Source: Thermocoleostomius sinensis A174
GTDB lineage: Bacteria > Cyanobacteriota > Cyanobacteriia > Elainellales > Elainellaceae
NCBI RefSeq assembly: GCF_026802175.1
Contig: NZ_CP113797.1
Span: forward strand, 1,403,026-1,467,025
Reading direction: 5' to 3'
Length of the DNA: 64,000 bases
The position numbers and the translations under genes were made by a program. The notes below the pieces were generated by a model. It saw only the letters and a program-made list of their open reading frames with translations, did not search any database and was not told the DNA's origin. Position 1 is the stretch's first letter. Every line of letters starts with the position of its first letter. Positions 1,227-58,066 of this stretch are shown piece after piece.

Positions 1227-2081
1227 ATGACTTTTCTACTTGCCCATCTAGGACCTACCGGTACTTATGCCGAAAGTGCCGCTATTGCTTGGGCAACCCA
1301 TTTAAAGCACCAAACTCAAGAAGAGGTGTGCTTACTGCCTTGCGCTAGCATTGCTCAAACATTGCGAATGGCAGCAGAACAGCAAGTTGATTTTGCAGTG
1401 GTTCCTGTGGAAAACTCGATCGAAGGAAGTGTCACAGTCACGTTAGATACGCTGTGGCAATTAGATTCCCTGCGCGTTCAGCAGGCTTTAGTTTTACCCA
1501 TTTCTCATGCGCTGTTGTCTTGTGCCCCAACCTTACAGTACGTTCAAACCGTATATTCCCACCCTCAAGCATTAGCGCAATGTCAAGGCTGGTTAGAAAA
1601 GAATTTGCCAACGGTTCAACTAGTTCCAGCTAATTCAACAACAGAGGCACTTCAGTTTTTATCTACCGATGAAACTGTAGCGGCGATTGCTTCTCAACGA
1701 GCCGCAGAGCTTTACAATCTTCCTGTGCTTGTCCATCCCATTAATGATCATCCCGATAACTGTACCCGCTTTTGGGTGTTAAGCTTAAAACCGCTCTCTG
1801 TCGGTAGTCATACGTCCCTAGCCTTTAGCTTACCTGCTAATGTTCCGGGGGCCCTAGTTAAACCATTGCAACTTTTTGCTAAACGCGGCATTAACTTAAG
1901 CCGGATCGAATCACGTCCCACTAAACGATCGTTGGGAGAATATGTATTTTTTATTGATTTTGAGTCGTCTATTGCAATGGATTCTGTGCGATCAGTACTA
2001 GAGGAGCTACAGAACTGTACTGAAACGCTAAAAGTTTTTGGTAGCTACAATATTAGCTTTGTAGATAGCACCAAGACTTAG
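1227..2081 (+). CDS. pheA: Prephenate dehydratase
   Basis: PheA converts prephenate to phenylpyruvate in phenylalanine synthesis. The 284-residue form chosen here starts MTFLLAHLGPTGTYAE, the normal cyanobacterial N-terminus; an upstream in-frame start at 1170 would add 19 residues unlike the family. The catalytic domain (about residues 1-180) carries VPVENSIEGSV and the NCTRFWVL motif that contains the catalytic Thr-Arg-Phe. A C-terminal ACT domain (about 195-280) holds GALVKPLQLFAKRGINL and the ESRP motif that binds phenylalanine, so allosteric feedback inhibition is expected. It stands alone, between a divergent DUF1997 gene and a convergent Lon-substrate-binding gene. Confidence 0.95.
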   Translation: MTFLLAHLGPTGTYAESAAIAWATHLKHQTQEEVCLLPCASIAQTLRMAAEQQVDFAVVPVENSIEGSVTVTLDTLWQLDSLRVQQALVLPISHALLSCAPTLQYVQTVYSHPQALAQCQGWLEKNLPTVQLVPANSTTEALQFLSTDETVAAIASQRAAELYNLPVLVHPINDHPDNCTRFWVLSLKPLSVGSHTSLAFSLPANVPGALVKPLQLFAKRGINLSRIESRPTKRSLGEYVFFIDFESSIAMDSVRSVLEELQNCTETLKVFGSYNISFVDSTKT

Positions 2082-2135
2082 ATCATTAGCTCAATAAACT
2101 CCAATCTTTTGCTCTACCTATTCTCACTAAACGCT

Positions 2136-2774
2136 TCATTTGAAGACATCTTCGAGGGCGGCTCGGGCTGCTAAGTGATTTCGGGTAGAAGTCAAGATCT
2201 CCACTTCCCGTTCAAGCCGTAACCCTGTGTCTTGCATTTCTAGAAGCGCTTGCTGTTCAAGGGCAGCACCTTTAAGGTTGCCTGCCACCCAGTAAGATAA
2301 CTCAGTGGGAAGGGTGGGAATATCATCAGGAAGTTCAATTTCTTGACCCGTCAGCTTAGCGGACAAATGAACGACATTCTTCAATAGTTCATCCACTTCA
2401 ATGGACAAGGCTCTTAAATCTCGATCGGTCGGTCGATCTTCTATCCATTCAACCAGTCCCACATAATAGGGCTTTTCACGAACAAAGTCTAAAACACGAA
2501 ATCGCTGCTGCCCCACTGCCATGATTTTCATGCGATCGTCGGGTAAGCGTTGGTAATGAATGATTTCAGCACAGCAACCAATGTTTGCCACCGTCTTGTC
2601 CGTCGGATCAACCATCAACACACCAAAGCGGCGATCGCTTTGCAGAATGGTGTTCATCATGATCCGATAGCGAAACTCAAAGATGTGCAGCGGCAGCTTA
2701 ATGCTGGGAAAAAGGACTAGCTCAGGTAAGGGAAAAAGCGGAAGCTCGCAAACAGCCACTGAAGAAAATGCCAT
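2136..2774 (-). CDS. Lon substrate-binding (LON N-terminal) domain protein
   Basis: A 212-residue stand-alone LON N-terminal domain (COG2802 type) without the ATPase or protease parts of Lon. The N-terminus ELPLFPLPELVLFPSIKLPLH and the following HIFEFRYRIM segment are the family signature. I chose the ATG at 2774 because homologues begin just before that motif; an upstream start at 2807 would add 11 atypical residues. It lies downstream of rpsJ on the same strand and may be the last gene of the str transcription unit. That position next to rpsJ is, as far as I recall, common in cyanobacteria. Its biochemical role is not established. Confidence 0.82.
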   Translation of the reverse strand: MAFSSVAVCELPLFPLPELVLFPSIKLPLHIFEFRYRIMMNTILQSDRRFGVLMVDPTDKTVANIGCCAEIIHYQRLPDDRMKIMAVGQQRFRVLDFVREKPYYVGLVEWIEDRPTDRDLRALSIEVDELLKNVVHLSAKLTGQEIELPDDIPTLPTELSYWVAGNLKGAALEQQALLEMQDTGLRLEREVEILTSTRNHLAARAALEDVFK

Positions 2775-2938
2775 CGTTTGTTTACATTCCCGTGGGGAAT
2801 TCAACACCAGTTAACCCTGGACTACCCCTCAGCTTCCTCAGAAATGCTCTGAAACAGACTGAAGTCAGCCAGTTTTTGACCCAACTCCAGTCTACCGCAT
2901 TGCTTCAGCTTCTCCAACGCGTACTTGCTACAAATTCA

Positions 2939-3256
2939 CTACAACTTCACTTCAATATCGACACCAGCAGGCAGATCCAGCTTCATTAAGGCATCGATCG
3001 TTTTAGAGGAAGGTTGATAGATGTCGATGATACGGCGATGGGTGCGAGTCTCAAAATGCTCGCGGGAATCTTTGTCAACGTGAGGAGAACGCAAAACACA
3101 ATAGATGCGGCGTTTCGTTGGTAAAGGAATCGGGCCAATCGCGGTTGCATTGGTGCGATTAGCGGTATCCACAATCTTTTCACAGGAAGTATCGAGTAAA
3201 CGACGATCGAACGCCTTGAGGCGAATCCGGATTTTTTGCTGCTGAATCGTTGCCAT
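2939..3256 (-). CDS. rpsJ: 30S ribosomal protein S10
   Basis: The 105-residue product is full length for S10, which sits in the head of the 30S subunit and doubles as transcription antitermination factor NusE. Recognisable segments are [20 protein letters not shown] near the N-terminus and [21 protein letters not shown] in the loop region. It follows tuf on the same strand after a 166-base gap that contains a 10-bp stem-loop, the str-operon order usual in cyanobacteria, where rpsJ is separate from the S10 ribosomal cluster. Confidence 0.98.
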
Positions 3257-55409: not shown

Positions 55410-55943
<534 letters not shown>

Positions 55944-56222
55944 TTAGTACAGAGTCATATAGCAGTAATAGTAAGTATATCGCTGTGCTTCTGCTTCCAC
56001 TGCACCTTCGGCAAAATAGATCTCAAAAAGACGAAGATTTCAAGCAGATAACAGCCGTAACGTTGCGGCTGCTAAAAATCGATCGCCGTCTGTAGCACGG
56101 CTACGTTTTGTTTTTGGGAAAGATGAAAATAGGCAACTGTGCAATCGCCGATCGATCGGGTTCCGTCCGAGGATTGATCGTGATGCGGCTCTACCATTCA
56201 CGACTTGGAATTCGCCCCGCTT

Positions 56223-56948
56223 ATGGCTTCGGGTTTGAAATCATCCACACTAGAGCTACTGAGACGCTTCAACCGTGCGTTTCCTCAGTTCTACGAGCAA
56301 TTCGTCAGCAGTGAAATTCAACTACAAAATTTACGGCTAGCCTACCAGCTTTACAAATCTCGACAAGCTGTAATTGAACTCAGTTCTGAAAGCAACCGCA
56401 GCACCTTGCATTTTGCCTACCGCAATCACTCGTTTCTACTAAGCGATATTTTTGGTGTGTTGGCAGCTTACGGTCTCACCATTCATAGTCTTAGCCTGTA
56501 TGGGCAAATTGATCCCCCCATGTTGGTGTTCATCAAGCTCGTAGTATCGCGCGGCGGCAAAGCCCTTCCCGACAAAACGGCTGACAATGTTTGTCGTGCC
56601 ATTCGTGAAGCCCTAGCAGGGCGATTTGAAGTGGAAGAAATGCTAGCCGTTGAATTTAACCTCGATGCGGGTCTCGAACAAGTAGAAACCGAATTTTATG
56701 TCGATCCAGTGTTTCATTTGCCAGCCCTACTGATTGAGGCAGACAACCAACCAGGCTTGTTCTACAAGGTCATGTATGCGATTTGGCAAGAAGATTTGCT
56801 TGTTGTCAATGCCAATCTTCTGGTTTGGCGAGGGCGAACACGACTGATTCTTTACCTATTAGGGCCAAACGAAAGTCTCATTCCAGAATACTTGGGGCAA
56901 AAGATTGCTGAAGGAGTGCGACAACGCCTGCTCGGTCGGTTTCGATAA
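56223..56948 (+). CDS. Tandem ACT-domain protein
   Basis: A 241-residue protein with two ACT-like modules. The first is around RSTLHFAYRNHSFLLSDIFG with VLAAYGLTIHSLSLYGQ. The second is around VFHLPALLIEADNQPGLFYK with VMYAIWQEDLLVVNANL. The pattern is that of the C-terminal ACT pair of GlnD-type uridylyltransferases, but no nucleotidyltransferase domain is present, so it is a stand-alone ligand-sensing protein. An N-terminal helical part (RRFNRAFPQFYEQFV) precedes it. The ATG at 56223 is preferred to TTG at 56205. Confidence 0.65.
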   Translation: MASGLKSSTLELLRRFNRAFPQFYEQFVSSEIQLQNLRLAYQLYKSRQAVIELSSESNRSTLHFAYRNHSFLLSDIFGVLAAYGLTIHSLSLYGQIDPPMLVFIKLVVSRGGKALPDKTADNVCRAIREALAGRFEVEEMLAVEFNLDAGLEQVETEFYVDPVFHLPALLIEADNQPGLFYKVMYAIWQEDLLVVNANLLVWRGRTRLILYLLGPNESLIPEYLGQKIAEGVRQRLLGRFR

Positions 56949-57165: not shown

Positions 57166-57459
57166 CTAAGCGCTTTCAGACATTTGACGGAGAGGTTCTA
57201 CCAGTAGCGTAATGTTACTGCGACCAATCACTCGAACCACCTCACCTGGCGACAGGGTGACATCTCGATTGCATTGGGCCGACCACCATGACCCTTGAAA
57301 GCGAACGCGACCTTTTTGGGATGGTTGAATCACAGCATCAACGATCGCTTCTCCAACGGATTGAAATCGAGAGATAGCTGTTAAAGAGGCATTTTCAGCA
57401 TCCTCAAGGGCGGTTGAAACCGTGGAGTTGAAGAATTTGTTGAGCGAAGACATAACCAT
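57166..57459 (-). CDS. NfeD-like C-terminal OB-fold protein under riboswitch control
   Basis: A 97-residue protein whose C-terminal half matches the NfeD C-terminal OB domain: [20 protein letters not shown] followed by [20 protein letters not shown]. The N-terminal half ([20 protein letters not shown]) is helical and could be a membrane-adjacent helix, but no clear transmembrane segment is present. NfeD proteins act with stomatins and SPFH proteins in membrane quality control; no such gene is adjacent. AAGGAGGAA five bases before the ATG at 57459 gives a strong translation start. A ydaO-type riboswitch and terminator lie just upstream. Confidence 0.78.
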
Positions 57460-57464
57460 TGGAA

Positions 57465-57473
57465 TTCCTCCTT
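57465..57473 (-). promoter_or_regulatory. Strong ribosome binding site of the NfeD-like gene
   Basis: Minus-strand AAGGAGGAA, five bases upstream of ATG GTT ATG, decides the start. A near-perfect site on a riboswitch-controlled gene fits regulation by transcription termination rather than by hiding the RBS. Confidence 0.8.
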
Positions 57474-57557
57474 GTCGTGAAACTCACTTGACTATCGCAA
57501 AACAGTTAGTGAGGAATAGATGCACTAAGTAACGCCGTAGATTCACTTAGAAAAAGC

Positions 57558-57589
57558 AAAAAAGCGTCACTCAAGAGGCCTGAGGACAC
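57558..57589 (-). terminator. Intrinsic terminator of the riboswitch expression platform
   Basis: On the minus strand GTGTC-CTCA (57589-57581) pairs with TGAG-GACGC (57573-57564, one bulged T) around a 7-base loop, followed by TTTTTT (57563-57558). It lies between the ydaO-type aptamer and the NfeD-like gene, 99 bases before the ATG. Confidence 0.75.
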
Positions 57590-57625
57590 TGAAGGAGATC
57601 AAGCTGTAAAAATGCTGACTCTTCA

Positions 57626-57849
57626 GTCTCCCCTCACTGCCGACGGAGTTAGCTGACGGGCTAGGGCTGAGAGGTGCCCCTTTTGAAAAGGCTAAAGCAT
57701 TAAATCTCAAGGTCAGAGCGACGACGGTTAAATTCAGTTTTGTCTATCTCTCATCGCTTTATCTTTTTCAAAATTCGCCCCAAGGAATGGTTCCTCCGTT
57801 TCAGATTCATCTCTTTGTCATTTTGAATGAAGGTGGATCTGAATTAGGC
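57626..57849 (-). promoter_or_regulatory. c-di-AMP (ydaO/yuaA-type) riboswitch
   Basis: Both conserved halves of the ydaO aptamer are visible on the minus strand. The 5-prime half has CGGAGGAACC (57798-57789) and CTTGGGGCGAAT (57784-57773), matching the consensus GGA-ACC...GGGG-AAU. The 3-prime half has AGGGGCACCTCTCAGCCC followed by CCCGTCAGCTAACTCCG and GGCAGTGAGGGGAGAC (to 57626), matching the strongly conserved C(C)CG-CAGCUAAC-CCG segment. P4 is extended: strands 57773-57756 and 57698-57681 pair over 18 positions with two mismatches. The 5-prime GCC (57849-57847) can close P1 with GGC (57641-57639). A terminator follows, so c-di-AMP probably shuts the gene off. Confidence 0.82.
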
Positions 57850-58066
57850 TGACTAACAGATTTAAGATTGTAAGGTAGCACTCTCGTCAAAATTTCGTCA
57901 ACGTTGTTGGATCATTGAATTTGCTTTGTCAATTTTGCTACGGTTGCCTTGTCACTCCAACTAAAGTTTGAGTTCGTAATATTAGCTTAAACAAAAATGC
58001 AAGTCAATGCTTACGTCTTAAGATGAGTTTTAATATTGCTGATGGAAGAGCGGCTTGAATCTTGTT

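Follow-up and report, generated by a model that had tools for sequence, protein, structure and literature searches.

Analysis of the 64-kb window (the whole stretch of DNA presented here) indicated that a canonical c-di-AMP riboswitch probably controls a monocistronic gene whose product is a small, soluble NfeD-like OB-fold protein, and that it most likely works as an OFF switch. A Rfam covariance-model search matched RF00379 (c-di-AMP, ydaO/yuaA) at 57830-57623 on the minus strand over the full model (positions 1 to 134), with 62.2 bits and an E value of 5.1e-12 against a gathering cut-off of 38 bits, and this was the sole gathering-level Rfam match in the window. The first-pass annotation had recognized both halves of the ydaO/yuaA aptamer on the minus strand, in motifs that are present as quoted, and had named the RF00379 model as the check, which proved significant. 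Its aptamer end at 57849 was also a better boundary than the 57830 of Rfam, as GCC at 57849-57847 can pair with GGC at 57641-57639 to form P1 and the 5' hairpin is closed by UUCAGAU/AUCUGAA; the Rfam match starts at 57830 because the 5' hairpin of the model is short, and the true 5' strand starts near 57849. The 5' strand of the aptamer, GTCAGCCTAATYC, was found again in many relatives. All model positions, the conserved cores, the pseudoknot, and a terminator-type platform are common to the class and the window copy, which differs in an 80-nt insertion in one peripheral hairpin (similar insertions were seen in relatives), in an enlarged 5' hairpin, and in its target, a soluble NfeD-like gene. 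Judged by its sequence, the RNA is an ordinary c-di-AMP riboswitch of a well-known class, and it is predicted to bind the ligand. The coordinates of all features are given in Table 1.

Table 1. Features of the riboswitch locus, with positions numbered along the window
Feature	Position	Strand	Basis
c-di-AMP aptamer (ydaO/yuaA, RF00379)	57623..57853	-	Rfam match 57830-57623 plus 5' extension
Pseudoknot strand CCUCUCA in 3'-half loop	57668..57674	-	Covariation, 20 aptamers
Pseudoknot partner UGAGGGG in aptamer 3' tail	57630..57636	-	Covariation, 20 aptamers
Antiterminator 5' strand GGGGAGACUGAAG	57621..57633	-	Folding
Antiterminator 3' strand CUUCAGUGUCCUC	57582..57594	-	Folding; found again in many relatives
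Intrinsic terminator AGUGUCCUCA/UGAGUGACGCU, bulged, then U6	57558..57590	-	Folding, equivalents in relatives
Shine-Dalgarno AAGGAGGA	57466..57473	-	Sequence; its GAGGA can pair with UCCUC 57586-57582
97-aa soluble NfeD-like OB-fold protein (PF01957)	57166..57459	-	Pfam, AlphaFold, PDB matches
Convergent ACT-like-domain gene, syntenic marker	56205..56948	+	ACT below Pfam cut-off; synteny
GNAT acetyltransferase gene, syntenic marker	55410..55928	-	Pfam; synteny
Same locus in nine relatives (genomes G001, G003, G013, G018, G022, G027, G030, G033, and G035): Usp-like target			

Compensatory changes were found in the tail-loop pseudoknot of the aptamer. Across 20 aptamers, 96.8% of cells in the pseudoknot (7 pairs) and the adjacent hairpin (4 pairs) were paired, and the covariation score for the two together was 0.53, compared with 0.29 in shuffles (0 of 500 shuffles were as high). 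Both sides had changed in three of the seven pseudoknot pairs, for example from CUCUCA/UGAGGG to CUUCCA/UGGAAG. Because the 5' strand of the antiterminator overlaps the pseudoknot strand, only one of these two helices can form at a time; the antiterminator 3' strand overlaps the 5' arm of the terminator, so that antiterminator and terminator share one strand. The antiterminator folded as a local hairpin of -23.7 kcal/mol (z, -3.2), and many relatives have a strand of the type of its 3' strand at a distance of 20 to 31 nt downstream of the aptamer. The intrinsic terminator that had been described downstream of the aptamer stood up to folding (-14.1 kcal/mol; z, -3.0; U6 tract), and terminator hairpins with changed pairs were present at loci L121, L012, L014, and L096; the corresponding hairpin in Filamentous cyanobacterium CCP2 (G010) is without a good U-run. 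A simple consensus terminator scan returned no match for 57590-57558, probably on account of a one-base bulge in the stem. In the region 57515-57575 (minus strand), an alternative pairing joins the 3' arm of the terminator to a strand further downstream, and similar long alternative hairpins occur in the ABC-type copies L121, L096, and L014.

The platform can switch between terminator and antiterminator, as judged by folding only, and in the folding model the three helices exclude one another, as is typical of transcriptional OFF switches. Binding of c-di-AMP would lock the 3' tail UGAGGGG into the aptamer pseudoknot, and the antiterminator 3' strand would then be available for the terminator; UCCUC may in addition cover the Shine-Dalgarno sequence, and little NfeD-like protein would be made. 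In the ligand-free state, the tail would instead pair with that strand, no terminator would form, and the gene would be expressed. Two considerations point to the OFF direction: this helix anatomy, and the Bacillus thuringiensis kdpFABC case, in which a c-di-AMP riboswitch with a terminator is a transcriptional OFF switch (PMC6488665). Both riboswitches have an intrinsic terminator downstream of the aptamer, and OFF logic is expected here as well, whereas the B. thuringiensis target is a potassium transporter operon.

The readout may be translational or mixed, since a constrained fold mimicking the bound state paired UCCUC at 57586-57582 with the Shine-Dalgarno GAGGA at 57470-57466; the minimum free energy structure retained part of an ACUGAAG/CUUCAGU helix, and the terminator was not formed. 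A mainly translational readout, in which the bound state would sequester the Shine-Dalgarno sequence in this way and the terminator-like hairpin would be secondary, is also favored by the Usp-locus relatives L020, L077, L102, and L108, where the analogous strand faces a GAGGAGA or GGAGAU Shine-Dalgarno sequence. It is nevertheless considered unlikely, as the stem of the terminator is good and is followed by a U6 tract, and terminator-type platforms were found repeatedly in ABC-operon copies, and transcriptional OFF switching is retained as the preferred reading. In the Usp-locus relatives L020, L077, L017, and L083, the Shine-Dalgarno sequence opposite the switch strand is that of a very short ORF (<40 codons), possibly a leader peptide, and the Usp gene begins only some hundreds of bases beyond it.

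The 97-residue ORF that had been reported behind a ribosome-binding site matched the NfeD family (PF01957) with 45.7 bits and an E value of 7e-12 (Pfam cut-off, 29.1), and the Shine-Dalgarno sequence is in place before it. AlphaFold predicted, with confidence, a five-stranded OB barrel over residues 36 to 89 (pLDDT of about 90 across residues 40 to 90) and a disordered N terminus, and fold matches in the PDB were 2k5h, 3cp0, 3wwv, and 2k14, the last three of which are NfeD soluble domains. The protein contains no predicted transmembrane segment (19-residue hydropathy maximum of 1.07, with zero windows ≥1.6), and its gene is monocistronic, with the convergent ACT-like gene behind it and no SPFH/flotillin gene in the operon. 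The suggested link to membrane quality was not upheld, as the protein is without a transmembrane segment or an SPFH/flotillin neighbor, unlike the two classical membrane NfeD proteins of the genome, which adjoin SPFH genes and contain 43 to 48 windows at the same hydropathy threshold. Hydropathy and gene neighbors likewise ruled out a membrane NfeD/SPFH operon (NfeD1/NfeD2). With the family members YuaF, YbbJ, and PH1510, the protein has in common the C-terminal OB-fold partner-binding domain but not the transmembrane part, the ClpP part, or the SPFH neighbor. The CCP2 orthologue is 62% identical, with a dN of about 0.30 and saturated dS, and the protein is thus under purifying selection. As with other c-di-AMP targets, its role may be in coping with osmotic or ion stress.

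The genome encodes further NfeD relatives, among them a stand-alone paralogue of 107 aa next to a DnaJ-like gene, and a large protein, putatively STAND-like (NB-ARC-like) by its sequence, that has an NfeD domain at the N terminus. A large, putative STAND-type NTPase with an N-terminal NfeD-type OB domain lies at positions 1375-3162 of locus L068 (G000:C1:354985 region; G000 is this genome), and NfeD-OB/STAND-type ORFs of about 900 aa occur in many relatives. No riboswitch was found beside the closest NfeD paralogue of the genome (L124), at the NfeD loci of Microcoleus and of further genera, or at the other scanned NfeD loci of relatives.

Synthesis of c-di-AMP in the host was assigned by homology to a single diadenylate cyclase (PF02457; E value, 1e-38). 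Three RF00379 copies are present in the genome, including that in the window; one of the others precedes a pair of genes for an ABC permease and an NMT1-like binding protein, beyond which lies a Usp-like gene, and the third precedes a CitMHS transporter gene. At locus L121 (G000:C1:4745218-4751933), the ATPase gene usual in the riboswitch-ABC operon is absent from its usual place; many relatives likewise have a Usp-like gene at the end of this operon. The cyanobacterial c-di-AMP riboswitch targets that have been described are osmoprotectant synthesis and transport and Synechocystis slr0753, a putative chloride exporter under a c-di-AMP riboswitch (cited in PMC10117731). The riboswitch of slr0753 is likewise cyanobacterial, and its target differs from that of the window copy; the CitMHS-type transporter behind the third copy may be comparable to slr0753.

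Targets were surveyed for 184 cyanobacterial c-di-AMP riboswitches, comprising a first set of 83 copies and a second set of 101 copies nearly all from other cyanobacterial families; among 60 relatives, 47 genomes contained the riboswitch. First genes behind the 83 copies encoded ABC permeases (28), Usp (21), CitMHS (11), glycosyltransferases (5), SucC-like proteins (5), S4-domain proteins (3), ABC binding proteins (3), NfeD (2), a Kef-type antiporter (1), and other proteins (4). Targets of the remaining 101 were CitMHS (35), Usp (29), ABC (27), glycosyltransferases (3), Kef (2), and others (5), with no NfeD. ABC, Usp, and CitMHS genes thus predominate among the 184, behind which NfeD was the first gene twice (in this genome and CCP2) and the second gene once (in the riboswitch-ABC operon of G012). 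No NfeD gene was found within about 1.5 kb of any of the 101 riboswitches of other families, using a profile that recovers the three known cases, and NfeD as a widespread c-di-AMP target was ruled out by this result together with the NfeD loci that are without a riboswitch. SucC/SucD-like CoA ligase genes follow c-di-AMP riboswitches at L099, L092, L104, and L112 of the same cyanobacterial family, and rare riboswitch neighbors in other cyanobacteria (L262, L286, L242, and L235) resemble, putatively from sequence, M23 peptidase, P-type ATPase, and DUF937-like genes.

Gene order at the locus was compared among relatives. In nine of them, the GNAT gene (minus strand) and the ACT-like gene (plus strand) are followed by a riboswitch with its target (minus strand), which is Usp-like, and a Usp-like gene is controlled in most syntenic relatives that keep the riboswitch. 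The same order with an NfeD target was found in this genome and in CCP2, which were placed together in the ACT-like gene tree with modest support (85/63). The position filled by the NfeD gene is taken in the nine relatives by a Usp-like gene under riboswitch control, and the regulatory slot therefore appears to have a different occupant in this lineage and CCP2. Given that position and the rarity of NfeD targets, the striking point is the lineage-specific difference in target. That the occupant was exchanged, with a soluble NfeD-like OB-fold protein replacing a Usp-like protein under the same signal in one cyanobacterial lineage, is a tentative proposal and on balance a doubtful one.

The riboswitch of the window might instead not be ancestral at the locus but a copy of the riboswitch of the ABC operon, acquired together with the NfeD gene or earlier. 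In a tree of aptamer plus platform, the two NfeD copies grouped with each other (95/86) and had ABC-type copies as their nearest rows, and in G012 an NfeD gene lies within a riboswitch-ABC operon, both of which are consistent with such an origin. This account is plausible without being probable, as neighbors and orientation are shared with the nine Usp copies and a tree in which the NfeD copies and the syntenic Usp copies form one group was not rejected by an approximately unbiased (AU) test (P = 0.07 and 0.33). The presence of NfeD as first gene in only two genomes among the 184 riboswitches could also mean that the riboswitch was left behind when a Usp gene was lost, with the NfeD gene behind it by chance and of no regulatory meaning. 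That is very unlikely: both genera retain the core, the pseudoknot, the antiterminator, and the spacing of the Shine-Dalgarno sequence, and the NfeD-like protein is under purifying selection.

The earlier description of NfeD as a poorly described target agrees with its rarity in the survey. Open-access literature searches yielded no paper linking NfeD with ydaO, and among papers containing both "NfeD" and "riboswitch," none was on such a link as far as titles and abstracts indicate. The riboswitch class is known; its target here is rare and, within the searchable literature, unreported.

The targets of riboswitches are among the best guides to the function of a second messenger, and to our knowledge, few c-di-AMP effectors are known in cyanobacteria. 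The survey places Usp-like proteins among the main cyanobacterial c-di-AMP riboswitch targets. Small soluble NfeD-like proteins are common and uncharacterized in filamentous cyanobacteria, and their occurrence as a rare target in two genera provides a testable functional clue, as well as a clue to the way in which one target gene gives way to another in a regulatory slot. If the exchange did take place, the small OB-fold protein would functionally replace, or act alongside, the Usp-like protein in osmotic or dark-survival physiology under c-di-AMP control.
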